Origin: Cupriavidus metallidurans CH34
Lineage (GTDB): Bacteria; Pseudomonadota; Gammaproteobacteria; Burkholderiales; Burkholderiaceae
NCBI RefSeq assembly: GCF_000196015.1
Contig: NC_007974.2
Location: 62,001-126,000 of the forward strand
Direction of reading: 5' to 3'
DNA: 64,000 nucleotides
Within the stretch, counting starts at the first letter, position 1. Every line of letters starts with the position of its first letter. Below are positions 643 to 11,339 of this stretch, in pieces. A program made the translations under genes and the position numbers. The notes under the pieces are model-generated. The model was given only the letters and a program-made list of their open reading frames with translations. It did not search any database and was not told the DNA's origin.

Positions 643-1155
643 TCAGACTTTATTGAGGCGGGCTTTGAGGTGCGGCACCAGCCCGCCCGCGTGCAACAGC
701 GCGCGCAGGAAATCGGGCACCGGTTCGCAGGATACGCGCCGGCCATCGCAGAGCCTGATCTCGGCCGCATCGAGGAAGAACGTGGCTCGCGCTCCGTCGG
801 CCAATGCGGCCGTATCCGCGCACACCAGCACCGGCAGCCCAATGTTGATCGCGTTGCGATAAAACAGCCCGGCGAACGACGACGCCAGCACGGCCGCCAC
901 GCCAAGATGCTTCAATGCCTGGGCTGCCTGCTCACGCGAAGACCCCATGCCGAAGTTGCTGCCCGCCACGATGACGTCGCCGGGTTTGACCGCGCCCGGA
1001 AACTCCGGCCGCAGGTTTTCCAGGCAGTGGCTTGCCAGCACATCGAGCCCGTCCTTCATGAATCGGCCCGGCGCCATCGCGTCGGTATCGACGTTTTCGC
1101 CGAAGCGCCAGATGCGGCCAGAGGGCGGGGGGTGGAAATCCGGAGCCGGGGTCAT
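643..1155 (-). CDS. Aconitase/3-isopropylmalate dehydratase family, small (swivel) subunit
   Basis: A 170-aa LeuD-like swivel-domain protein. It has the GENVDTDAMAPGRFMK start and the GSNFGMGSSREQA substrate-recognition loop typical of IPM dehydratase small subunits. It pairs with the large subunit encoded immediately upstream; its ATG overlaps that gene's TGA as ATGA, so translation is probably coupled. The true leucine-pathway leuCD normally sits with leuB. Here the partners are a Bug binding protein and a GntR regulator, so this is more likely a hydro-lyase for a catabolic 2- or 3-hydroxy diacid. The substrate is not identifiable from sequence. Confidence 0.85.
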   Translation of the reverse strand: MTPAPDFHPPPSGRIWRFGENVDTDAMAPGRFMKDGLDVLASHCLENLRPEFPGAVKPGDVIVAGSNFGMGSSREQAAQALKHLGVAAVLASSFAGLFYRNAINIGLPVLVCADTAALADGARATFFLDAAEIRLCDGRRVSCEPVPDFLRALLHAGGLVPHLKARLNKV

Positions 1156-2474
1156 GCCAGTAACGTGCGTGGGTCAGTGATGCAGCCGGTGGCGGCGCTG
1201 GCAGCCACGGTCATGGGCGATGCCAGCCATACGGCGCTACCTGCATCGCCCATGCGGCCGGGGAAGTTGCGCGCGGTCGAGGCGATGGCGCGGCTGCCGG
1301 CCGGAAAGCGTGTGGCGCCGTAGCCGGCGCACGCATTGCACGCGTTCGGCAGCAGCTCCGCGCCGGCATCCATCAGCACGCCGAGCGTCCCTTCGGTGGC
1401 CGCTTGTTGCTGGTCGCGCAGCGAGGCCGGCGCGACCTTCAACGACACGCCCGGTGCCACCTTGCGCCCGCGCAGCACGCGCGCGGCCATGCGCAGGTCT
1501 TCGAGCTTGGCGCCGGTGCAGGCGCCCAGATAGGCGATCTCGATCGGCGCGCCGGCGGCCTGGTCGACCGGGCCGCTGTTGGCCGGCGAATGCGGCGCGG
1601 CTACCTGCGGTACCAGCGTGCCGGCATCGAAGCGATGTGTGGCCAGTACCGGTGCGTCGGCATCGCTGCGCCACTGGCGCGGTTCGATCGCGGCGAGCGT
1701 GGCGGCATCGACGCCGGCATCGGCAAGCCATGCCATCGTCGTGGCATCCGGCGCGATCAGCGCCGTTTGCGCGCCGAGTTCGGTGCTCATGTTCGTGAGC
1801 GTCATGCGCTCCTGCATCGACAGCGTCTTTACCGTGCTCCCGGTGTATTCGATCACTTCGTAGCGGCCACCCGCCATACCCAGCGTGGCGCACAGGAACA
1901 GCATGATGTCCTTGGCGCAAACGCCGTCCGACAGCGTCCCCTGCCACTCGACCCGGATCGTGTTCGGCACACGCAGCCAGATCTCCCCCGTGGCCAGCAC
2001 ACCGGCCATTTCCGTGGCGCCGATACCGAACATGTACGCGCCAAAAGCGCCGCCCGTGGGGCTGTGGCTGTCGCCGCCGACGATGAAGCGTCCGGGCAGG
2101 ATATGGCCGCGCTCGGGCAGCACCACGTGGCAGATGCCTTCGTTGTCGATGAAGTTCTGAATGCCCGCTTCACGCACCCAGTCGCGCGTGAAGCGCAGAA
2201 TCGATTCGGCTTCGGGGTCGGCCGCAGGCACGTAGTGGTCGGTGACCACCACGAAGCGGGACGGATCCCAGACCTTTGCGCCGAGTTCGCGCAGCAGCGG
2301 CGCCACGCGGCGCGGTCCGCTCGAGTCGTGCGACATGGCCAGGTCGACCTTGCACATCACCACCGATCCCGGCGTGACATGCGACACACCTGCCGCACGA
2401 GCGACCAGTTTCTGGGCGAGTGTGGCGGGCAGTTGGCTGGGGTCGACCGCGGTCTTGCCGTGCGGCAGGGTCAT
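1152..2474 (-). CDS. Aconitase/3-isopropylmalate dehydratase family, large [4Fe-4S] subunit
   Basis: A 440-aa LeuC-like catalytic subunit that would isomerise or (de)hydrate a hydroxy-dicarboxylate using a labile 4Fe-4S cluster. The three cluster ligands are visible: Cys319 in GACTGAK, and Cys379 and Cys382 in NACNACAGYG. GGDSHSPTGGAFG around residues 133-145 is a family motif. The open frame runs further upstream, but ATG at 2474 is chosen because it matches family length and overlaps the preceding Bug gene's stop as ATGA. The CTGAK and NACAGYG variants differ from the CTNGR and GPCMG motifs of genuine LeuC, consistent with a divergent substrate group. Confidence 0.85.
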   Translation of the reverse strand: MTLPHGKTAVDPSQLPATLAQKLVARAAGVSHVTPGSVVMCKVDLAMSHDSSGPRRVAPLLRELGAKVWDPSRFVVVTDHYVPAADPEAESILRFTRDWVREAGIQNFIDNEGICHVVLPERGHILPGRFIVGGDSHSPTGGAFGAYMFGIGATEMAGVLATGEIWLRVPNTIRVEWQGTLSDGVCAKDIMLFLCATLGMAGGRYEVIEYTGSTVKTLSMQERMTLTNMSTELGAQTALIAPDATTMAWLADAGVDAATLAAIEPRQWRSDADAPVLATHRFDAGTLVPQVAAPHSPANSGPVDQAAGAPIEIAYLGACTGAKLEDLRMAARVLRGRKVAPGVSLKVAPASLRDQQQAATEGTLGVLMDAGAELLPNACNACAGYGATRFPAGSRAIASTARNFPGRMGDAGSAVWLASPMTVAASAATGCITDPRTLLA

Positions 2475-3511
2475 TCGGGCTTGGCTCCTGAATACTTCAC
2501 CACCGTGGCCCAGCGCTTGACGTCCTGCTTCACGAAATTCGCGAACGCCTCCGGCGGCATGGCACTGGGCTGCGCGCCATCGGTTTCCAGGCGCTTGCGC
2601 ACTGCGGGCTGCTCGAGCCCGTGGCGTGCGGCCTGATACAGTGCCTGTGTGATCTCCGGCGGCAGATTGGCCGGGCCGAACAGGCCGAACCACGCGCTGG
2701 ACTCGAAACCCTTCACGGTGGCGCCAATCGGCTGCGCACCCGGAAACTGCGGCAGCGGCGTCGGGCTGGTCACGCCGAGCACCTTGAGCTTGCCGGCCTT
2801 GACGTGCTGCGCCACGTTGATCGTGCTGGCGAACATCAGGTCAACCTGCCCCGCGAGCAGATCCGTGATGGCGGGCGTGGTGCCCTTGTACGGGATGTTG
2901 ACGATATACGTGCCCGTCATCATCTTGAACATGTCACCGGCCAGATGCACCGACGATCCCACCGCGCCGATGCCGAAGTTCAGCTTGCCCGGCTCGGACT
3001 TGGCCAGACGGATCAGTTCGGGGATGTTGTTGGCGGGCAGGTTGGGCCGTGCCACCAGCACGCTGGGCACGGTGGCCACGAGCGTGATCGGCGTGAAGTC
3101 CTGGATCGGATCGAACGGCAGCTTCTTGTACAGCGTCGCGTTGATCGTATGGCTGGTGAAGCTCATCAGCAGCGTAGTGCCGTCGGCCGGGCTCTTGGCC
3201 ACCATGTCGGCAGCGATATTGCCGCCTGCGCCGGGGCGGTTCTCGACCACCACGGGCTGGTCCAGCGTCTGCGACATTTCTTGGGCGATCGTGCGTGCCA
3301 GCGTGTCGGTGGTACCGCCCGCGGGCGCGCCTACGAGGATGCGGATAGGCTTGCCGCCAGCGATCGCAGCTTGCGCGGCCTGTGCGGAAGGCGCGATGCA
3401 CCACGCGGCCAGCGCGAGCAGCGCTGCACAGGATGCGCGCCGCTGGCTGCTGGCGGATTGCAGGGCAGACTTGCAGGCAGGCTGATGCTCGCCCGGGCGA
3501 ACGACTGGCAT
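2471..3511 (-). CDS. Tripartite tricarboxylate transporter substrate-binding protein (Bug/TctC family)
   Basis: A 346-aa periplasmic binding protein with a long N-terminal signal region (hydrophobic core around residues 28-42, cleavage near AQA). It has the Bug hallmark sequences KPIRILVGAPAGGTTDTLAR, PGAGGNIAADMVAK and YKGTTPAITDLLAGQVD. Such proteins deliver carboxylates to TctAB membrane components, but none are in this window, so it is an orphan Bug. An SD-like GAGGAG precedes the ATG. It is translationally coupled to the aconitase-family large subunit, suggesting the bound ligand is that enzyme's substrate or a precursor. Confidence 0.9.
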   Translation of the reverse strand: MPVVRPGEHQPACKSALQSASSQRRASCAALLALAAWCIAPSAQAAQAAIAGGKPIRILVGAPAGGTTDTLARTIAQEMSQTLDQPVVVENRPGAGGNIAADMVAKSPADGTTLLMSFTSHTINATLYKKLPFDPIQDFTPITLVATVPSVLVARPNLPANNIPELIRLAKSEPGKLNFGIGAVGSSVHLAGDMFKMMTGTYIVNIPYKGTTPAITDLLAGQVDLMFASTINVAQHVKAGKLKVLGVTSPTPLPQFPGAQPIGATVKGFESSAWFGLFGPANLPPEITQALYQAARHGLEQPAVRKRLETDGAQPSAMPPEAFANFVKQDVKRWATVVKYSGAKPE

Positions 3512-3611: not shown

Positions 3612-4394
3612 TCAGTCGCGCAGGCCCGTGCGGGTTTCGTTCTCCACCCACACGTTGGCGCTGTCCCCGCCGCCCATTGGCGACAGTTCCATGCGGTACT
3701 CGTAGCGGTCGGGTCGATACTGGCCCATCAGCAGTTGCACCGGACGCCCGTTCTTGTCGAGCACCACGCGGCGCACGGCCAGCAGCGCGCCGCCAACGGG
3801 CACGTCGAGCAGCGGGGCCACGACCACGTCGGCCAGGCGGGCCGTCAGCACTTGCGACGCGCGGCCCAGCTCCACACCGGCGGCTTCCAGCAGGCGCAGC
3901 ATCGGCGTGTTTTCCAGATCCTTGCGGGTCAGTGAGCGGCCCAGGTCGATCGGCAGGTAGACCGTGATGTGGGACAGAGGGCGGTTGCGGTAGTGACGCA
4001 CGCGCACGATCTTGACCACGGGATCGCCCACCTGGATCTGCAGCGCTTCCGCGACTTCAGGGGTGGCGTGCACCTCGTCGATCGAGATGACCTTGACCGC
4101 GGTCTTCTCGCCCATGTCGATGATGGCGCCGAGCAGGCTCGTGGCGCGTTCCTCGGTGACCTGCGGCCTGACTGGATGCGGGTTCACGAACGTCCCGAGT
4201 CCGCGATGGCGGCGGACCAGGCCTTCCTGAACCAGGCGGTCGAACACGCGCCGCATCGTCACGCGCGAAGCGTGAAATTGCTTGGCAAGGTCGATTTCGC
4301 CTGGCAGCGGGCCCTGGCCGAAGCGGCCTTCCACGATCTGCTGGCGGAGCACCACGTAAATCTGGTGATACAGGGGAACGACGGCTTCACTCAT
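3612..4394 (-). CDS. GntR-family transcriptional regulator (HutC/UTRA type)
   Basis: 260 aa. The N-terminal winged helix (residues about 8-75) contains the GntR signature EIDLAKQFHASRVTMRR and ends in RHRGLGTFV; the C-terminal half is a UTRA ligand-binding domain (LSHITVYLPIDLG). It is the first gene upstream of the Bug/aconitase-family operon on the same strand, 100 bases away, and is its likely regulator. The effector is probably a small carboxylate. An A-rich GGGAAACC precedes the ATG as a weak ribosome site. No operator could be assigned with confidence. Confidence 0.9.
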   Translation of the reverse strand: MSEAVVPLYHQIYVVLRQQIVEGRFGQGPLPGEIDLAKQFHASRVTMRRVFDRLVQEGLVRRHRGLGTFVNPHPVRPQVTEERATSLLGAIIDMGEKTAVKVISIDEVHATPEVAEALQIQVGDPVVKIVRVRHYRNRPLSHITVYLPIDLGRSLTRKDLENTPMLRLLEAAGVELGRASQVLTARLADVVVAPLLDVPVGGALLAVRRVVLDKNGRPVQLLMGQYRPDRYEYRMELSPMGGGDSANVWVENETRTGLRD

Positions 4395-5093
4395 GGTTTC
4401 CCTTGCGTAAGCGCTGACAAGTCCTAGACGCGTGTAATGTACTTTAAATCAGACATGGCGGCCAGCATCAAACGCACTCGCGGCGTGCGAAGCACAATCC
4501 GCGACCATATGTGTTGCGAGACGGCATCGAACGTCCGCCAGCCGCAAGAAAAGACGGTGTGCAGCGGCGATTCCTGCGCACCGGGGCGTAGTCATATGTC
4601 CGCGCGGCCCGGTTTCACGCGCTTGCAGCATGACGAAGCCGACACTGACTAGTCAGGCTTGCCGGCACCTTGGGGGGGGATGGTTGGGGGGCGGTGGCAT
4701 CGCTGTTTCACCGCCGTTACGCGGGTTGCCGTCTTCAGCGTGTCGCTCGTACGGTCATAACACATTGAATTTCTGGCATTTTTTTCGGACGTGCCGGGCC
4801 GGTTCGCCTGACGGCCAAAATCGGTGTCACACCGCTGTGACATGTCTACTCCCATGCACAGGTTCCTGGTGAATGTGCGGCGCACAACAAACGGAAAAAG
4901 TTCCCAGGGAATTCCGCGCCAGCCTTTGTATTTCAACGGGATGCGCCGCGCGCCATGCGTGCTGGCACTGAATATGCGCAGGGGAAGGCTGGTCCAGCAA
5001 CCGTGCGGGACCTGAACCTCCAGCCGGCGTTCTGGCTGTATGAGCGGTGGCCGGAGGCTGAGCCGCAATGTGAAATTCTCCTGGGAGCAACGT
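4395..5093. other. Divergent intergenic region between the gntR gene and the Gly-rich operon
   Basis: About 700 bases with no convincing gene on either strand. It must hold the promoters of both flanking genes. Visible elements are a 12-bp palindrome CTGACTAGTCAG (4645-4656), a G-run cluster at 4672-4697 (eight and six Gs separated by short spacers), a T-run at about 4779-4785, and a TGTCACA-N4-TGTGACA dyad at 4825-4842. Local base composition at 4740-4800 is more AT-rich than the surroundings. Confidence 0.6.
4825..4842. promoter_or_regulatory. 18-bp perfect dyad upstream of the Gly-rich operon
   Basis: TGTCACA-CCGC-TGTGACA, a 7-bp inverted repeat with a 4-bp centre, 250 bases upstream of the start codon at 5094. 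The half-site order is opposite to CRP (TGTGA-N6-TCACA), so it is not a normal CRP site. It could be an operator for an unidentified dimeric regulator. Confidence 0.4.
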
Positions 5094-6575
5094 ATGAACA
5101 AGACATTACTTGCGTCGGCGATTGCGCTGGCTTTTGGCATAGGTGGCCAGGCGCTGGCAAACCCGACGAACAACAACGAAAAGACCGGCACCACCAATAC
5201 CCAGAATGCGACGGCAACATCCACGCAGAGCGGTGCTGGTGCATCTGCGAATGAAAATTCGACGGCTCTCCAGGCTAATGGAAACTCTTCCTCGTCGACC
5301 ACCAACAAGACGAAGAACACCACCAACACCAACACCAACTCCAAGAATCACACCGATCAGGACATGCACGGCTATGGCAATGCCGCTGCGGCCAATGGCA
5401 GTACGGCTACCGCCAACTTCACCAACTCGTTCAACTCCAGCAAGGCGCTGGCCATCAGCAAGCTTGAAGGCTATGTGACCGGCAACTACATCCACAACAT
5501 CGGTAACGTTGCCACCAACAATGGCACCGCCAATGGTGGCGCGGGTGGCAAGGGTGGCGCCGGTTATGGCGGCGACGGCAAGGGCGGCTCGGGTGGTTCG
5601 GGTGGCGCTAGCGGCGCTGGTGGCGGCGGCGGCAGCGGCGGCTCGGCAATCAATGGCAGCGCCAAGGCGGGTTATGCCTCCAATGGCAGCGCAACCGCTG
5701 GCGATGGCGCGGCAGGCGGCAAGGCCGTTGGCTGGGCTGGCGATGGCGGCAACGCCAAGAGCAACGGTGGCGGCGCGCTCACGGCGAGCCTTGGCGTAGG
5801 CGGCTTCGGCGGCTCGGGCAAGGGCAGTGGCGGAGCCGCAGGTGCCGGCGCCCTGGGCGGCTTCGGTGGCGACGGCGGCAATGCCAAGGGTAGCGGTGGC
5901 GGTGCTCTGGGCGCCAGCGGTGGCCTGGGCGGCGACAGCGCTGCTGGGTCCGCGCTCGGCAAGGTCCATGGCAATGCCGGCAACAGCTCGGCTACTTCCG
6001 GAGCGGGTGGCAATGGCACCGGTGGTACTGCTTCGGGCACTGGTGGCGCGGGTAGCGGCACGGGCGGTGCAGGTGGTGCAGGCGGTGCGGCTACGGCAGC
6101 TGCCGCAGGCGGCGCAGGCACTGGTTCTGGCGGTGCTGGCGGCGCCAACACCTCGACTGCCGGCGCGGCAACTGGTGGCGCCGCGACTTCGACCGGCGGC
6201 GCCGGTGGTGCGCAGAACAGTGTTGCCGGCAACGGTGGCGCTGGCGGTGCAGCCACTAACGGCAGCGCAAGCAGCATGGCGTCGAATGGCAGCGCAACGG
6301 CAGGCAATGGCGCGGTTGGCGCTTCGTCTGGCGCTGGCGGTGCTGGTGGCGTGGGCATGGGCGGCACGGGTGGTACCGGCAACGGTGCGGTTGGCGGCGC
6401 TGGCGGCAACGGCGGCACCAACTATGTCGATGCAGGCACCTTCAACATGTCGAACATGATGTCCAGCGTCGGCCAGTCCGCAGCCGGCATCATGATGGCC
6501 AACCAGAACAGCGGCATGTCGTCGCTGGTGCAACAAAGCGTCAACGTCCAGGCGAACCTGGCAGTCGGCAAGTAA
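5094..6575 (+). CDS. Secreted glycine/alanine/serine/asparagine-rich repeat protein (candidate matrix or amyloid subunit)
   Basis: 493 aa. The signal peptide is residues 1-23 (MNKTLLASAIALAFGIGGQALA). An Asn/Thr/Ser-rich region follows to about 120, then ISKLEGYVTGNYIHNIGN, then about 300 residues of Gly-Gly-rich imperfect repeats (motifs GGxGG, GDGGNAK, ASNGSATAG) resembling silk- or PGRS-like sequence. A non-repetitive Asn/Gln-rich tail (about 443-493) contains QNSGMSSLVQQSVNVQANL. There are no cysteines. ATG 5094 is chosen because GGGAGCAAC precedes it and it begins a canonical signal peptide. It leads an operon with a C39 peptidase and an outer-membrane barrel, so it is probably the exported structural component. 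Similar proteins are sometimes annotated as haem-utilisation or adhesin proteins; nothing here supports haem. Confidence 0.8.
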   Translation: MNKTLLASAIALAFGIGGQALANPTNNNEKTGTTNTQNATATSTQSGAGASANENSTALQANGNSSSSTTNKTKNTTNTNTNSKNHTDQDMHGYGNAAAANGSTATANFTNSFNSSKALAISKLEGYVTGNYIHNIGNVATNNGTANGGAGGKGGAGYGGDGKGGSGGSGGASGAGGGGGSGGSAINGSAKAGYASNGSATAGDGAAGGKAVGWAGDGGNAKSNGGGALTASLGVGGFGGSGKGSGGAAGAGALGGFGGDGGNAKGSGGGALGASGGLGGDSAAGSALGKVHGNAGNSSATSGAGGNGTGGTASGTGGAGSGTGGAGGAGGAATAAAAGGAGTGSGGAGGANTSTAGAATGGAATSTGGAGGAQNSVAGNGGAGGAATNGSASSMASNGSATAGNGAVGASSGAGGAGGVGMGGTGGTGNGAVGGAGGNGGTNYVDAGTFNMSNMMSSVGQSAAGIMMANQNSGMSSLVQQSVNVQANLAVGK

Positions 6576-6590
6576 GTCCTTCGAGCGTCT

Positions 6591-6614
6591 GTACCGTTCC
6601 GCACGGAACGGTAC
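6591..6614 (+). other. Perfect hairpin between the Gly-rich gene and the rest of its operon
   Basis: A 10-bp perfect stem (GTACCGTTCC / GGAACGGTAC) with a GCAC loop, 15 bases after the stop codon at 6575. No T-run follows, so it is not a classical intrinsic terminator. It may stabilise the upstream message or act as a partial attenuator, giving more of the first protein than of the downstream ones. Confidence 0.55.
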
Positions 6615-6767
6615 AGCACCCGCAGGGTTGAATCGGATGGGGCAGTGCGTGCCGACGGCATTGTTTGTCGACCGCTCTGCCGCATCAGACGCCTGTAGGT
6701 CCGAAATCGCTTCCGACGCTGGCGGCCCGGATGGGGGGCCGTGCCTCGGGGCATGAGGAGACGCACC

Positions 6768-7229
6768 ATGCGATTGCATCGCCGAGCTGTCCTGGCAATG
6801 TCGACAGCCATCCTGGCCTGGCCGTTTGCGCAGGCTATTGCGGGGCCCCCCGTCGCCGAGGCATCCGCCACGGCCGTCGCGGTGGCAAGCAGTGATACAG
6901 GCGCAGCCACTGTTGTGGCGGGCGCGGCGGCAAGCGTGACGGCGGTAACGCCGGATGCTGCCCCCAAGTTGAATATTTTCGGCACGACAGCCAATGCGGT
7001 CGCGAGCAGCAAGCTCGATGACGTGCGCGGTGGCGCTGAACTGGTCGTCAACGACATGCGCCTGAACGGCACCGTGGGCGGCAACGCTGCCATCAACACG
7101 CTGTCGGGCAGCAACTATGTCTCGGACGGTTCGTTCGCCAATGCCGCGGGTTTGCCGACCGTGATCCAGAATTCGGGCAACAACGTACTGATCCAGAACG
7201 CGACCATCCTCAACGTCCAGTTCAAATGA
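6768..7229 (+). CDS. Small exported protein with internal R-G-G site and VIQN tail (Fap-like subunit candidate)
   Basis: 153 aa. Start 6768 is chosen because GAGGAG sits 7 bases upstream and it opens a signal peptide (hydrophobic core about 8-22, cleavage near AIA). An Ala/Val/Ser/Thr-rich stretch is followed by SKLDDVRGG at residues 81-89, where Leu at -7, Val at -4 and Gly-Gly match a double-glycine leader site. The tail VIQNSGNNVLIQNATILNV (132-150) is Asn/Gln-rich like amyloid repeats. Its stop overlaps the start of the C39 peptidase gene (ATGA). Its function is unknown; an amyloid nucleator or minor subunit processed by that peptidase is inferred from context only. Confidence 0.75.
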   Translation: MRLHRRAVLAMSTAILAWPFAQAIAGPPVAEASATAVAVASSDTGAATVVAGAAASVTAVTPDAAPKLNIFGTTANAVASSKLDDVRGGAELVVNDMRLNGTVGGNAAINTLSGSNYVSDGSFANAAGLPTVIQNSGNNVLIQNATILNVQFK

Positions 7230-7924
7230 TCATGCGCAGCCTGCTGTTGGCAGCCGCCACGCTGGCGGTGGCGCTGGGTGGCATCGCCGAAGCCCGCGCC
7301 GATACCATTCGCATTCCGGGCGATCAGGGCAACTCTTACACAGTGCCCGTGACCAGCCTGCGCGAAGCGCGCTTCCGCACGACCATCCGACAGCAATACG
7401 ACTTCAGCTGCGGCTCGGCCGCCGTGGCCACGCTACTGACCTTTCAGTACGGATTCCCCGTCAATGAAGAGACGGTCTTCGCCAACATGTATGTCAACGG
7501 CGATCAGGCCAAGATCCGCTCGGAAGGATTCTCCCTGCTTGACATGAAGCGGTTCCTCGAGTCGCGCGGGTTCCTGGCCGACGGCTACGAGTTGCCGCTA
7601 TCGAAGCTCGAGGAAGCGCAGATTCCGGCGATCGTGCTGATCGTCGAGAACGGTTATCACCACTTCGTCGTGATCAAGGGGATCAAGGGCGACCGCGTGC
7701 TGATCGGTGACCCCGCGCGCGGCACCCGCTCCATCGAGCGCGATCACTTCGAAAAGATCTGGGACAGCCAGTTGCTGTTCGTTATCCACAATCGCACGGA
7801 CCGCGCGCGATTCAACCTGGCAGCCGACTGGCGCGTGGCGCCGTCGGGCCCTTACTGGATGGGAGTTCCGCGAGACAGTCTGTTCTTCACCGTCATGCCA
7901 AAGCATGGCCCCGCCGATTTCTGA
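7226..7924 (+). CDS. Exported C39-family cysteine peptidase (FapD-like)
   Basis: 232 aa with a signal peptide (residues 1-25, ending EARA). The C39 papain-like fold elements are visible: the oxyanion Gln in RQQYDFSCGSAAVA with catalytic Cys62, His145/146 in GYHHFVVIKG and Asp162 in IGDPARG. C39 peptidases cleave after double-glycine motifs. Most are fused to ABC transporters; free, exported versions are known as FapD in functional-amyloid operons. The gene overlaps the preceding small exported protein by ATGA and is followed after 13 bases by another exported protein with an R-G-G site, so both neighbours are plausible substrates. Confidence 0.88.
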   Translation: MIMRSLLLAAATLAVALGGIAEARADTIRIPGDQGNSYTVPVTSLREARFRTTIRQQYDFSCGSAAVATLLTFQYGFPVNEETVFANMYVNGDQAKIRSEGFSLLDMKRFLESRGFLADGYELPLSKLEEAQIPAIVLIVENGYHHFVVIKGIKGDRVLIGDPARGTRSIERDHFEKIWDSQLLFVIHNRTDRARFNLAADWRVAPSGPYWMGVPRDSLFFTVMPKHGPADF

Positions 7925-7937
7925 GCTGAGGAACATC

Positions 7938-9077
7938 ATGGTCCAGACAACCATTTCACCCGCACCAAGATGCACGGCCAGGTCGACAACCGCGGCCGTG
8001 CTGCTTGGCGCGGGGCTGGCCTGCGCGGGCAATGCCCACGCCGGTGTCGAGACCTTGGCACCCGAGTCAGCCGATACCGCGGGCGTGGCGACTCCAGTCG
8101 CCATCGACCTGCCTGCAATGCCGACGCCGACACAGCTGTCGGCGCTATCCGAAGATCCAATCACTGCGGCGGCGCGTGCCGCAGACCCCATCGTTGCGGA
8201 CAACGTCGCGGAGAACGTGTCCGGGAAAGCTGTCGAGTCGATCGCCGAAGCGCCTGCGCGGGGAGTAGAACCGGTGGACAAGGCGTCCGTTGCGCGGCAT
8301 CACCCCATCGGGGACACGCTCGTGGCTGCCATGACAATGGCCACGCGGGAGCCCGCTGCGCAGGTGGCCGAAGCACGCGACGGCATGGCCAGGTGGAAGC
8401 CGGTCGCGCAGGCGCGGCTTGAAGAATCGCGTGGCGGTTTCGATGTCGCCGGTTTGCAGGTTGGCTTCGGTATTGACCGCGCCGTCTTCGTCAATGGCGC
8501 GCTGGCCGTGGCCACGAGCATCACGATTCCCAACATCAGCAGCATCACCTCGGCACAGGCCGCGCAACTCGCACAGGCCCTGGCGCCGGTGACTGTTGCC
8601 GTGACCGGCGCCAACAGCATAGCGAGCGCGGCGATTGCTGCCGCGCAGGCTGCAACGGGTCAGGCCGGTCAGGCGGGACAATCCGCGACCACGGCAGCGA
8701 ATGGCGCGGCAGCCAGCGCGCAAGGCGCTGCCGGTGTCGCGGCGTCCACTTCGACTGCAGCAGCAAGCGGCGGGATCGCCCAGGCAACGGGCGCCGCCGG
8801 CGTAGCGCAACAACAGGCCGCGACCGCCGTCGCGGCGGCGGGCACGGTCGTCACCAACGGCCTGCTCACGGTGATACAGAACGGCGCGGCCAACACCGCG
8901 AACGTAGGTTCGGTAGCGAACATGCCGGCCACGGTTATCCAGAATACCCTCAACAACCAGAATATCCAGAGCCTGATGACGATCAACGCCAGCGTGAACA
9001 CGCTGGCGGCATTCCGCGCGCAAATGGCAAACACCGCGCTGAACAGCGTCATTCCAACAATGGCCGGCATGAAGTAA
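7938..9077 (+). CDS. Exported Ala-rich protein with R-G-G site and VIQN repeats (Fap-like)
   Basis: 379 aa. ATG 7938 follows GAGGA and begins a signal peptide (hydrophobic core about 18-30, cleavage near AHA). A roughly 120-residue acidic/Ala-rich pro-region ends in ARLEESRGG (159-167) followed by FDVAGLQVGFGIDRAVFVNG, again a possible double-glycine site with Leu at -7. After an Ala/Gln-rich low-complexity zone (205-305) come two related motifs, LLTVIQNGAANTANV and ATVIQNTLNNQNIQSLMTIN, and a short tail. The family is not named with certainty. Position between a C39 peptidase and an outer-membrane barrel matches FapE or a second subunit in Fap operons. Confidence 0.75.
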   Translation: MVQTTISPAPRCTARSTTAAVLLGAGLACAGNAHAGVETLAPESADTAGVATPVAIDLPAMPTPTQLSALSEDPITAAARAADPIVADNVAENVSGKAVESIAEAPARGVEPVDKASVARHHPIGDTLVAAMTMATREPAAQVAEARDGMARWKPVAQARLEESRGGFDVAGLQVGFGIDRAVFVNGALAVATSITIPNISSITSAQAAQLAQALAPVTVAVTGANSIASAAIAAAQAATGQAGQAGQSATTAANGAAASAQGAAGVAASTSTAAASGGIAQATGAAGVAQQQAATAVAAAGTVVTNGLLTVIQNGAANTANVGSVANMPATVIQNTLNNQNIQSLMTINASVNTLAAFRAQMANTALNSVIPTMAGMK

Positions 9078-9185
9078 CAGCAATAAGGCAGTCGCAGGAA
9101 ACTTTGGTCGTGGAAAGGAAGACATCGACGAACTGGTAGCGGGCCTTAGCGTTTTTGCCCGCCGTCCTCGGGGGAGGTAGACGTC

Positions 9186-10658
9186 ATGAAGAAGCGCTCG
9201 CTGCAGGGCATTGGTCTTGCCAGTTGCTCTACGATGTGCCTGCTTGGCGGCATGGCTCATGCGCAGACTCCGCCCGACGATGGGCCGCCGGCGGCCGCCA
9301 AGCTCGAAACGCTGCAGAAGGAACTGACCGAACAGGCGAAGCAGCTGGAGGCGATGAAACGGGCGCTGGCCGAACAGGAGGCCACGATCCGCGAACTGCG
9401 CAGCACGGTGGATAGCGAATCGCTGGCGCGCAAACGTGGTGGCCAGGCCGGGGTAGGCACCGGCGTGACGCCGAGCAACATGGCGACCAATGCCGCCGCG
9501 GCCGCCGCGGGCGCCAGCGCCACACAGATCAACAGCACGGCCCAGCAAGGCGTACAGGCCCAACAGGCGCCATCCGACGCGCCGCCGCAGGCCGTGGCGC
9601 CACAGAACGTGCAGCAGGGCCAGGCCGCGCAGGGCGACCAGCAAGGCGAGTCCGCCGCGGGTCCCGAACAACCGGTGGGCAGGCCGCCGGAGCGCGATAC
9701 GCGTCCACCAGAGATCGCGCCAATCTTCGACCAGCCTGGCGTACTCACGCCCCAGGGCAAGATCGTGATCGAACCGAGCTTCCAGTACGGCTACTCGTCG
9801 AGTGACCGCGCGGTACTGGTCGGCTACACGGTGATTCCCGCGCTGCTGATCGGCCTGATCGACGTGCGCGAGATCAAGACGTCGACGTACATCACGTCCA
9901 TGGCCTTCCGCTACGGCATTACCAAGCGTCTCGAGATCGAAGCCAAGGTGCCGTACGTGCATTCGAGCAGCGATACCGTCAGCCGCGAAATCTTCACCGG
10001 CACCGCCGTCGACAACGCCTTCAATGCGAGCGGCAGCGGCCTGGGCGACGTTGAGGCGACGTTGCGCTACCAGCTCAACTACGGCAACGAGAAGATGCCG
10101 TACTTCATCGGCTGGCTGCGCTACAAGTCGAACACCGGCAAGGATCCGTTCGAGGTGGTGACCGATTGCGTGACCCGTTGTGTCAGCAACACTACCGGCA
10201 CCGGGTTGCCGCTGGGCATGCCGACCGGCACCGGCTTCCAGGCAATCCAGCCGGGCGTCACGTGGCTGTTGCCGACCGATCCGGCGGTGTTCTTTGGTAC
10301 CTTCAGCTACCTGCACAACTTCGCGCGTGACAACATCTATCGCACCGTGCTGAACGGCCAGCAGGAATTCCTCGGCAAGATCGCACCGGGAGACATCTTC
10401 GAGTTCAACTTTGGCATGGGCCTGTCGCTCAACGAGCACGCGTCGTTCAGTATCGGCTACGACCAGAGCATCATCTGGCCGACCAAGCAGAACGGGCAGA
10501 CCGTCCCAGGCTCCGTGCGCATCACGCAGGGCACGCTGCTCGTGGGCTACTCCTATCGCTTCAACAACCGGTACACACTGAACCTTTCGGTGGGCGCGGG
10601 CCTGACGCGAGACACACCGGATCTGACGGTGACGGTGCGTCTACCGATCACATTCTGA
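9186..10658 (+). CDS. Outer-membrane beta-barrel with N-terminal coiled coil (FapF-like exporter)
   Basis: 490 aa. The signal peptide is residues 1-26 (ending MAHA). A heptad-rich coiled coil follows at about 38-78 (KLETLQKELTEQAKQLEAM), then a Gln/Ala/Pro linker (about 80-165), then about 320 residues of alternating amphipathic strands. It ends in RLPITF, a C-terminal Phe as in BAM-inserted barrels. FapF, the trimeric amyloid exporter of Pseudomonas, has the same coiled-coil plus barrel plan. A strong GGGGGAGG ribosome site lies before ATG 9186. It closes the operon begun at 5094, after a 108-base gap. Overall homology to phenol-degradation MetA-type barrels is also possible. Confidence 0.8.
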   Translation: MKKRSLQGIGLASCSTMCLLGGMAHAQTPPDDGPPAAAKLETLQKELTEQAKQLEAMKRALAEQEATIRELRSTVDSESLARKRGGQAGVGTGVTPSNMATNAAAAAAGASATQINSTAQQGVQAQQAPSDAPPQAVAPQNVQQGQAAQGDQQGESAAGPEQPVGRPPERDTRPPEIAPIFDQPGVLTPQGKIVIEPSFQYGYSSSDRAVLVGYTVIPALLIGLIDVREIKTSTYITSMAFRYGITKRLEIEAKVPYVHSSSDTVSREIFTGTAVDNAFNASGSGLGDVEATLRYQLNYGNEKMPYFIGWLRYKSNTGKDPFEVVTDCVTRCVSNTTGTGLPLGMPTGTGFQAIQPGVTWLLPTDPAVFFGTFSYLHNFARDNIYRTVLNGQQEFLGKIAPGDIFEFNFGMGLSLNEHASFSIGYDQSIIWPTKQNGQTVPGSVRITQGTLLVGYSYRFNNRYTLNLSVGAGLTRDTPDLTVTVRLPITF

Positions 10659-10826
10659 TGGCGTTCGCACAGGCGAAGTGACGCGCGAAATTCTCCGTTT
10701 GGCACCCCACTTCCCGTCATCCATTCGGTACCTTGCGCAGGCTTCGTGGAGAGAGTAGAACAGCTACTAACCCGTCCCGAAGACGGATCATCAGAGTACG
10801 GGGCGGCCTGACAGAGGAGGCTAGTC

Positions 10827-11339
10827 ATGCGCAAACGGATCTTCTGGTTGTTGCCCGACCTGGCGAGCGCGCGCCGTACCATGGACGACCTGCTGCTGGC
10901 TCGCATCGAGAATAGCCACATCCATTTCGTGGGACGCGATGGCGCCGACATGACGGGTCTGCACGAGGCAAACCTGTTCCAGACTTCGGACATCGTTCAC
11001 GCTGCGGAAATGGGTCTGATGGTTGGCGGTGGTGTCGGTATCGTGGCCGGTGTGGTGGTGGCGATGTTCCCGATCGTCAGCGACTCTCCGCAATGGGGCC
11101 TGGTCGGCGTGCTCGCCGTGCTGGGCGCCGTGTTTGGCGCGTGGGCCGCGAGCATGATCGGCAGCTCGGCGCCGAACAGTCGACTACGGTCGTTCGAGAA
11201 GGACATCGAGGCAGGCAAACTGCTGCTGATGGTGGATGTGCCGCGCGGCCGTGTTGAAGAAGTCGAGGCGCTGCTGCAGAAGGCGCACCCCGAAGCGTCC
11301 TTCGCCGGCCTGGATCCTGCTGTACCGGCCTTCCCCTGA
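10827..11339 (+). CDS. Small membrane protein with glycine-rich hairpin (DUF1269-like)
   Basis: 170 aa, preceded by AGGAGG. A soluble N-terminal part (residues 1-60, RIFWLLPDLASARRTMDDLL) precedes two closely spaced transmembrane segments rich in Gly/Ala/Val (about 61-80 and 90-112) and a charged C-terminus (FEKDIEAGKLLLMVDVPRGRVEEVEALLQKAHPEA). This layout fits DUF1269/general-stress-like membrane proteins whose function is unknown. It is a single gene, transcribed like the Fap-like operon but 168 bases downstream. Confidence 0.7.
   Translation: MRKRIFWLLPDLASARRTMDDLLLARIENSHIHFVGRDGADMTGLHEANLFQTSDIVHAAEMGLMVGGGVGIVAGVVVAMFPIVSDSPQWGLVGVLAVLGAVFGAWAASMIGSSAPNSRLRSFEKDIEAGKLLLMVDVPRGRVEEVEALLQKAHPEASFAGLDPAVPAFP

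Follow-up and report, generated by a model that had tools for sequence, protein, structure and literature searches.

A Fap-related gene cluster of a separate clade in Cupriavidus metallidurans CH34, predicted to export proteins that carry a single C-terminal Fap-type repeat

The window analysed here is a stretch of 64,000 nucleotides of the metal-tolerant soil bacterium Cupriavidus metallidurans CH34 (NC_007974.2, positions 62,001 to 126,000 of the forward strand; all positions below are those of the window), in which an earlier note had placed a Fap-like functional amyloid cluster of five plus-strand genes. The five open reading frames (ORFs) were found with the bounds 5094-10658, and we call them g1 to g5 (Table 1). 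g3 and g5 are homologous to FapD and FapF of the functional amyloid system of Pseudomonas (Fap), g4 is related to FapE, and C-terminal modules are shared between g1 and g2 and between g2 and g4. These relationships make it probable that the cluster encodes an outer-membrane machinery for secretion and fibre assembly that is related to Fap but forms a clade of its own. The g2 ORF opens at 6741, and the ATG at 6768 was preferred for its better ribosome site, judged by eye; the g3 start overlaps the g2 stop by 4 nt. Signal peptides of the cluster proteins were assigned by eye, and in the Pfam and NCBIfam queries g2 began at 6741 and g4 at 7944, which leaves out two codons of g4.

Table 1. Genes and features of the cluster, in window positions.
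Feature	Position	Strand	Basis
g1, exported Gly-rich protein, 493 residues	5094..6575	+	ORF call, C-terminal module alignments, recurrence
g1 layout: signal peptide, Thr/Asn-rich N-terminus, Gly-rich spacer, one C-terminal Fap-type repeat
g1 Gly/Ala-rich spacer, residues 123-440	5460..6413	+	composition count
g1 C-terminal 39-residue module, candidate Fap-type repeat via tandem-repeat relatives	6444..6560	+	HHalign
12-bp perfect hairpin just past the g1 stop	6589..6616	+	folding and shuffles
g2, small exported protein, 153 residues, with a leader-like motif and one putative Fap-type repeat	6768..7229	+	
g2 double-glycine-leader-like motif, 12 residues ending Arg-Gly-Gly	6999..7034	+	
g2 C-terminal putative Fap-type repeat	7116..7223	+	HHalign
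g3, exported C39 peptidase, FapD-like, 232 residues	7226..7924	+	Pfam, NCBIfam, active site
g4, exported FapE-like protein, 379 residues	7938..9077	+	
g4 double-glycine-leader-like motif, 12 residues ending Arg-Gly-Gly, Ser at -4	8403..8438	+	
g4 C-terminal Val-Ile-Gln-Asn module, common to g2	8922..8999	+	HHalign
g5, FapF-like putative secretion barrel, 490 residues	9186..10658	+	
g5 probable N-terminal coiled coil, residues 33-77	9282..9416	+	weak coiled-coil-type matches
g5 barrel domain with plug region, residues 171-490	9696..10655	+	PDB FapF match

The peptidase g3 matched the Pfam C39 family (E 5e-24) and the C39 structure 6mpz (E 6.5e-9), and 24 columns are invariant in 11 aligned g3 homologues, the active-site Cys, His and Asp included; against the NCBIfam FapD model it scored 149 bits (E 9.7e-44; cut-off 330). 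The sequences of the FapF crystal (PDB 5o67) aligned with residues 171-489 of g5 (E 1.8e-28) and are its sole significant PDB match. The N-terminus of g5 gave only weak coiled-coil-type matches, that to the FapF coiled coil 6fue not being significant (E 3.5). The barrel, which the earlier note had likened to FapF, is therefore homologous to the solved FapF and not an unrelated channel, and lies below the curated NCBIfam model (141 bits; equivalog cut-off 700). In the canonical control locus L074 the FapB, FapC, FapD, FapE and FapF models all matched (E 3e-26 to 3e-120) and all remained below cut-off as well (FapF 402 bits, FapD 270 bits), so that a score below cut-off does not by itself exclude Fap identity.

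Residues of FapF with published roles (PMC5557850) were compared across 113 barrels of the clade. Of these, 113 retain the equivalent of E111, 112 that of R157 and 113 that of K401 (as Arg or Lys); the second PTG motif is retained in 109-113 per position, and the first lacks its Pro. An assignment of g5 Asp182 as the plug salt-bridge acid E98 of FapF was dropped, because the HMMER register puts Gln183 there and Asp182 one position earlier; the Asp182 position holds Asp or Glu in 108 of the 113 barrels.

The C-terminal modules of g1, g2 and g4 (g1C, g2C and g4C) were compared by HHalign with one another and with relatives in which the module is repeated in tandem. The probability was 95 for g1C with the tandem form (95 and 93 for the tandem-repeat relatives), 96 for g2C with the tandem form, 90 for g1C with g2C and 94.5 for g2C with g4C (score 36.3, shuffled maximum 13.0). 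The scores of these pairs lie at 31-43, whereas 20 column shuffles reached no more than 13-17. The tandem form aligned clearly with the third FapB repeat (28.0, null maximum 13.4 in 40 shuffles), and in whole-protein alignments the tandem-type g1 matched FapB over 155 columns (score 47, maximum 14.9 in 20 shuffles) and FapC (score 38.7, shuffled maximum 14.6); in the same test the known homologues FapB and FapC scored 114. Compared directly with FapB, g2C scored 27.3 (shuffled maximum 16.1, probability 49). In the segment tests the modules were located by patterns that share a G-Q-Q-G skeleton, and the comparisons were repeated with whole-protein alignments.

By these alignments, g1 and g2 each end in ~40 residues of a repeat family whose link to the Fap repeats runs via relatives with four copies. 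As the direct comparison of g1C with FapB and FapC fails (the scores are given below) and the tandem forms align, we infer that the relation of g1 to the Fap repeats runs through the tandem forms only. The earlier note had held that g1 does not resemble FapC; its glycine repeat is indeed unlike FapC, but its C-terminal module appears to be kin to the tandem-repeat proteins, for which alignments with FapB and FapC were obtained. In the repeat codons nonsynonymous sites are the less variable ones, the median ratio of nonsynonymous to synonymous change (pN/pS) being 0.36 for g1 and 0.31 for g2 (33 pairs), with 0.22 for g3 (11 pairs). When the g1 C-terminus was used as query, only 7 of 51 candidate proteins were recovered, and no Pfam model scored above cut-off for g1, g2 or g4. 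The family PF27129 is a precomputed label on the relatives P0002-P0006 and P0009, but a Pfam search of P0002 does not return it.

The bulk of g1 is of a different kind. Residues 136-445 (310 residues) comprise 130 Gly, 66 Ala, 32 Ser, 21 Asn and 21 Thr, with a mild periodicity (1.32-fold enrichment of Gly at lag 3), and this GGX-type Gly/Ala composition recalls PGRS, silk and polyglycine-II proteins, a comparison from composition and not from homology. Glycine is encoded in g1 by GGC 102, GGT 41, GGA 3 and GGG 1 codons, and in g3-g5 by GGC 67, GGT 15, GGG 10 and GGA 6; these counts neither favour nor exclude a nucleotide-repeat artefact. In the g1 position of other gammaproteobacteria a similar N-terminus and the C-terminal module are kept and the middle varies: it is Asp/Asn/Ser-rich with 3-7% Gly in L210, L211, L216, L218 and L219, Gly-rich in L207, L208 and L217, and absent in L209 and L212, where the protein consists of four tandem modules. 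The protein of L213 is mixed (17% Gly), that of L215 is short and not Gly-rich, and that of L214 is cut off. By comparison of the loci, the Gly-rich part of g1 is a swappable spacer that is Asp/Asn/Ser-rich or absent in other lineages. A Leu-x-x-x-Val-x-x-Asn motif precedes the Gly segment in 65 of 111 long g1 proteins (duplicates and paralogues included), follows it in none and was not found in the remaining 46, which is suggestive only of a spacer inserted inside a split repeat unit. Two adjacent g1 genes occur in 7 of 108 distinct loci, all from Paraburkholderia (L090, L092, L101, L103, L110, L123 and L154), and recall the FapB/FapC pair.

The order of peptidase, exported protein and barrel had been read in the earlier note as a parallel to fapD-fapE-fapF, and this parallel is borne out by the homologies of g3 and g5 and by a relation between g4 and FapE around a shared N-terminal motif. 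HHalign of 64 of 127 g4 rows, taking every second, with 15 FapE rows gave a probability of 80.5 and a score of 40, and none of 20 shuffles scored above 16.8. In g4 and g2 the motif consists of a hydrophobic residue at -12, Leu at -7, usually a hydrophobic residue at -4, Arg at -3 and Gly at -2 and -1, and it thereby shows the hydrophobic -12, Leu -7, Gly -2 and Gly -1 of double-glycine leaders. Among leader windows picked by a motif-favouring score and kept only with Gly at -2 (for g2, 121 of 127), Leu -7 was found in 122/128 g4 and 108/121 g2, Arg -3 in 116/128 and 100/121, and Gly -1 in 121/128 and 100/121. The pattern [LM]..x[RTK]G[GRKA], with -4 restricted, occurs in 125/128 g4 and 80/127 g2 (shuffled means 11.4 and 4.8), the pattern [LM]..[LIVM].GG in 88/128 and 71/127 (8.2 and 4.0), and the core double-glycine pattern (-12, -7, GG) with a hydrophobic -4 in 85/128 and 70/127 (6.3 and 3.3). 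In the window itself, position -4 is Ser in g4 and Val in g2. For PCAT1 the leader consensus is L(-12)xxxE(-8)L(-7)xxxxG(-2)G(-1), in which -7 and -12 form the binding knot and -4 gives specificity (PMC6959990). The PCAT1-type Glu at -8 is mostly missing here, Glu or Asp standing there in 17/128 g4 and 10/121 g2 windows. None of the NCBIfam leader models matched among 12 g4 proteins.

A matrix built from 78 distinct g4 leaders was applied to 2500 background ORFs, and their 99th percentile was exceeded by 109 of 127 g2 proteins and by 8 of 15 canonical FapE proteins. By eye, all 15 FapE carry Leu, Val or Ile at -12, Leu or Met at -7 and Arg or Lys at -1, and in 12 of the 15 the leader-like motif ends at ORF residue 46-72. 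The FapE rows of the HHalign and matrix tests were picked by the pattern RG[KR][YF], which makes the Arg-Gly there no independent evidence; likewise, the g4 rows of the HHalign test and of a 12-row alignment (L070 and L115 left out) were mostly cut at Arg-Gly-Gly and are not independent support for a leader. By eye, g1 has no leader-like motif, in keeping with the FapB and FapC reported to be unprocessed.

In the passages of PMC5557850 that deal with FapD, its target is called unclear, the Fap proteins are described as lacking canonical C39 sequences, FapE alone lacks peptides from its first ~70 residues, and FapE or FapF is suspected as the target with no site named. The suspicion that falls on FapE, its missing ~70 residues and the end of the FapE motif at residues 46-72 together lead us to predict that the FapD-like g3 cleaves g2 and g4 after Arg-Gly-Gly and that FapD cleaves FapE at the matching site. 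The leader-like motif in g2 and g4, and its putative GR/GK version in canonical-type FapE, are new here; in a subset of the open-access literature, subscription papers not being covered, we found no paper on the clade of the window and none that names a FapD cleavage site. A motif of this kind ending Ala-Gly was also seen in a protein upstream of a different C39-plus-barrel locus (L197:1274-3079), a hint that the leader rule may reach beyond Fap; the g4 matrix found none in the other 15 such loci.

Conservation was followed in 108 distinct loci, made up of the window, 35 loci from a search of Cupriavidus and the best 80 of 571 GTDB stretches that encode a relative, minus 8 duplicates, and chosen by similarity of the peptidase and not of g1. 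Profiles found g2 and g4 in all 108, g1 in 105 (the three loci without it start at a contig end) and g5 in 101, with the order g1-g2-g3-g4 constant in 108/108 as far as the genes are present. g5 lies downstream on the same strand in 74 of the 101 loci that have it. In seven loci no g5 was found; two of these are short contigs, and five have 8 kb of downstream sequence (L080, L083, L091, L126 and L130). The co-occurrence of the five genes in other genomes, on which the earlier note had let its reading depend, is therefore conserved. Of the 36 Cupriavidus genomes that were searched, 34 have this g3 and, by profile, g1, g2, g4 and g5 as well; one of the two without it is 54% complete. By title, the best 80 of the 571 GTDB stretches are mostly Burkholderiales (with Aromatoleum and Dechloromonas), Xanthomonadales and metagenome-assembled genomes. 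At E <=1e-6 the g4 profile matched 32 of 399 genomes of the order and 11 of 398 of the phylum (own genome included), and only one of the latter, weak (1.8e-8), lies outside the class.

A FapD-like match at E <=1e-15 was obtained in 45 of 369 genomes of the class sample, at 58 places. The 40 regions fetched, covering 41 of these places, comprise 13 window-type, 11 canonical Fap-like and 16 other regions. Twelve of the 13 window-type regions have g2 and g4 matches (L213 weakly), L217 has a weak g4 match only, and all 13 are assigned by the tree as well. In this FapD tree (83 rows, quick method, unrooted) the 52 window-type rows group with a Shimodaira-Hasegawa-like approximate likelihood ratio test (SH-aLRT) value of 99, and apart from them the 15 canonical rows, together with one unassigned row, group with 98. 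A canonical fap-type locus (L071, L072 and L073) coexists with the window-type system in three genomes of Cupriavidus (G021, G023 and G001); nearly all genomes have one fap operon in a published survey (PMC12392863). In the four canonical loci of the first set no g1C, g2 or g4 was found by profile, and the NCBIfam FapE model matched none of 12 g4 proteins. Judged by tree and profiles, the locus is a sister clade of Fap and not Fap itself. One genome, G105 (L192 and L193), has seven FapD-like C39 places, three of them on one contig, and no barrel match in the two fetched regions, which cover three of the seven.

Around the cluster lie a divergent GntR-like gene upstream (3612-4394, minus strand, named by eye) and a small conserved gene downstream (10827-11339) with a weak DUF1269 match. 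The latter adjoins the cluster in 33/33 Cupriavidus relatives fetched and the former in 29/33, with a contig end behind three of the four exceptions; the two loci of other genera in the same comparison showed neither gene. We treat both as neighbours. Further upstream, at 643-3511 on the minus strand, the translations suggest a TTT-type solute-binding protein and isopropylmalate-dehydratase-like genes. Between the GntR-like gene and g1, and within the cluster, inspection by eye showed no other ORF of at least 80 residues that looks exported and could be FapA, no FapA profile having been searched; of the Fap components, FapA is the one most often missing (PMC6173800). Scanning 4390-10900 for sigma-70 promoters gave none, and Rfam gave nothing at gathering score within the window. 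The 65-nt segment around the hairpin past g1 folds with -28.3 kcal/mol (z -2.9; 2 of 200 shuffles fold equally well), and 87 of 113 loci (duplicates kept) have a hairpin of at least 9 bp no more than 150 nt past the g1 stop, where base shuffles lead one to expect 19.9. Because the hairpin has no T run, our guess is that it may act as an mRNA end-stabiliser favouring g1.

With canonical Fap (FapABCDEF of Pseudomonas) the cluster shares a FapD-like exported C39 peptidase, a FapE-like protein, a FapF-like coiled-coil/barrel, repeat-bearing exported subunits and the order subunits-D-E-F. It differs in the giant Gly-rich (or Asp/Asn/Ser-rich) spacer with one repeat instead of three, and in a leader-like site that is mostly GG, whereas the canonical one is GR/GK. 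The putative Fil pilus likewise combines a C39 peptidase with a barrel, but the NCBIfam scores of g3 with FilB (127 bits) and g5 with FilC (30 bits), the two components compared, are far below the cut-offs of 475 and 630; we found no open-access paper joining FilB, FilC, Acinetobacter and pilus. PCAT1 and LahT have the C39 fold in common with g3 and a leader-like motif with hydrophobic -12, Leu -7 and Gly-Gly. In contrast to them, the window cluster has no ABC (ATP-binding cassette) transporter, Arg is usual at -3 (116/128 g4), Glu -8 is mostly absent, and peptidase and substrates carry signal peptides, judged by eye, so that cleavage would be periplasmic. Relatives of the FapD/FapF machinery are already known to exist, colocalised fapD and fapF having been reported in five further phyla (PMC6173800). 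In PMC6629876, a paper on C. metallidurans, the sole mention of amyloid is a reference title.

From these relations we infer a route of export and assembly. All five proteins would enter the periplasm by Sec; g3 would recognise the double-glycine-type leader in g2 and g4 and cleave after Arg-Gly-Gly, which would license their export; and the g5 barrel, with its periplasmic coiled coil and plug, would export g1, g2 and g4. Outside the cell the single C-terminal Fap-type repeat of each subunit would stack as one cross-beta layer, with g2 as minor subunit or nucleator and g1 as main subunit, and the ~320-residue Gly-rich region of g1 would form a brush or coat around the spine and determine the properties of the surface. 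In the published structure of FapC every repeat makes up a single cross-beta layer, and its long linkers may give rise to a soft coat (PMC12392863); by analogy, we propose for g1 a subunit of one layer that bears a large coat. It is possible, though we would sooner doubt than assert it, that the clade represents a separate 'brush' amyloid class, in which the cross-beta spine would be built from single Fap-type repeats of different proteins, the main one with an interchangeable low-complexity chain (Gly-rich, acidic Asp/Asn/Ser-rich or none), with FapF-type export after FapD leader cleavage and with the same leader rule fixing the FapD site in canonical FapE.

Several results weigh against a Fap-related fibre system. 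Direct comparison of g1C with canonical FapB/C segments stayed below the null (10.2 against 12.8; 13.8 against 15.9), and its whole-protein alignment with canonical FapB gave a score of 15.6 (null 15.1) at a probability of 1; with the FapB/C repeats pooled, the tandem form aligns only weakly (17.3, null maximum 16.4), and the HHalign comparisons of g4C with g1C and with the tandem form fail, so that g4 is tied in via g2 only. The NCBIfam FapB, FapC and FapE models gave no match to g1, g2 and g4 at E up to 1, and each subunit here has one repeat, against three in 94.2% of FapC (PMC12392863). As to processing, a strict leader with Ser/Thr at -11 and Glu/Asp at -8 is present in only 5/128 g4 and 0/127 g2, one of the two C39 knot/groove residues (PCAT1 I59) is Lys or Arg in g3 by our reading of the alignment, and a figure legend of PMC10638192 has FapD modifying FapC and not a FapE-type substrate. 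Finally, g5 lies on the opposite strand in 27 of its 101 loci.

Among the other explanations, the one we take most seriously, although it is unlikely, is that g1 is a non-amyloid glycine-rich matrix, adhesin or coat protein and that the module of g1, g2 and g4 is no fibre core but only a signal for export or anchoring that g5 and g3 recognise. An export tag would be expected to take this form, a single module in each protein at or near the C-terminus, and the bulk of g1 is a spacer whose type changes between lineages; in L209 and L212, however, the g1 position is taken by four tandem modules without spacer that align with FapB across repeats, and a bare export signal is not expected to make up a whole protein. 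That the cluster is a true Fap merely diverged, with g1, g2 and g4 strictly FapC, FapB and FapE, would agree with the gene order subunit, subunit, FapD, FapE-like, FapF and with the repeat relation via the tandem forms; it is improbable in view of the separation of the two types in the quick, unrooted FapD tree, of the three Cupriavidus genomes carrying both systems and of the failure of the curated subunit models on the window proteins. We give still less credit to g5 being a small-molecule or hydrophobic-substrate channel of the FapF-like/COG4313 family with the other genes as incidental neighbours: FapD and FapF are members of larger families (PMC3792158), there are uptake channels related to them (PMC6173800) and seven loci showed no g5, yet g5 is kept beside exported proteins in 101 of 108 distinct loci and its only significant solved match is FapF itself.

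A Fap-related system with a distinct subunit design is thus, on sequence grounds, real and widely conserved. If the Fap-related fibre system described here is true, Fap-type amyloid export would be broader than is found by surveys requiring FapB/C repeat hits, as one did (PMC12392863, section 2.1), and there would be a concrete residue-level site for the FapD cut, where the passages on FapD in PMC5557850 name none. Fibre core and coat would then be separable modules swapped in nature, a ready design for surface materials.

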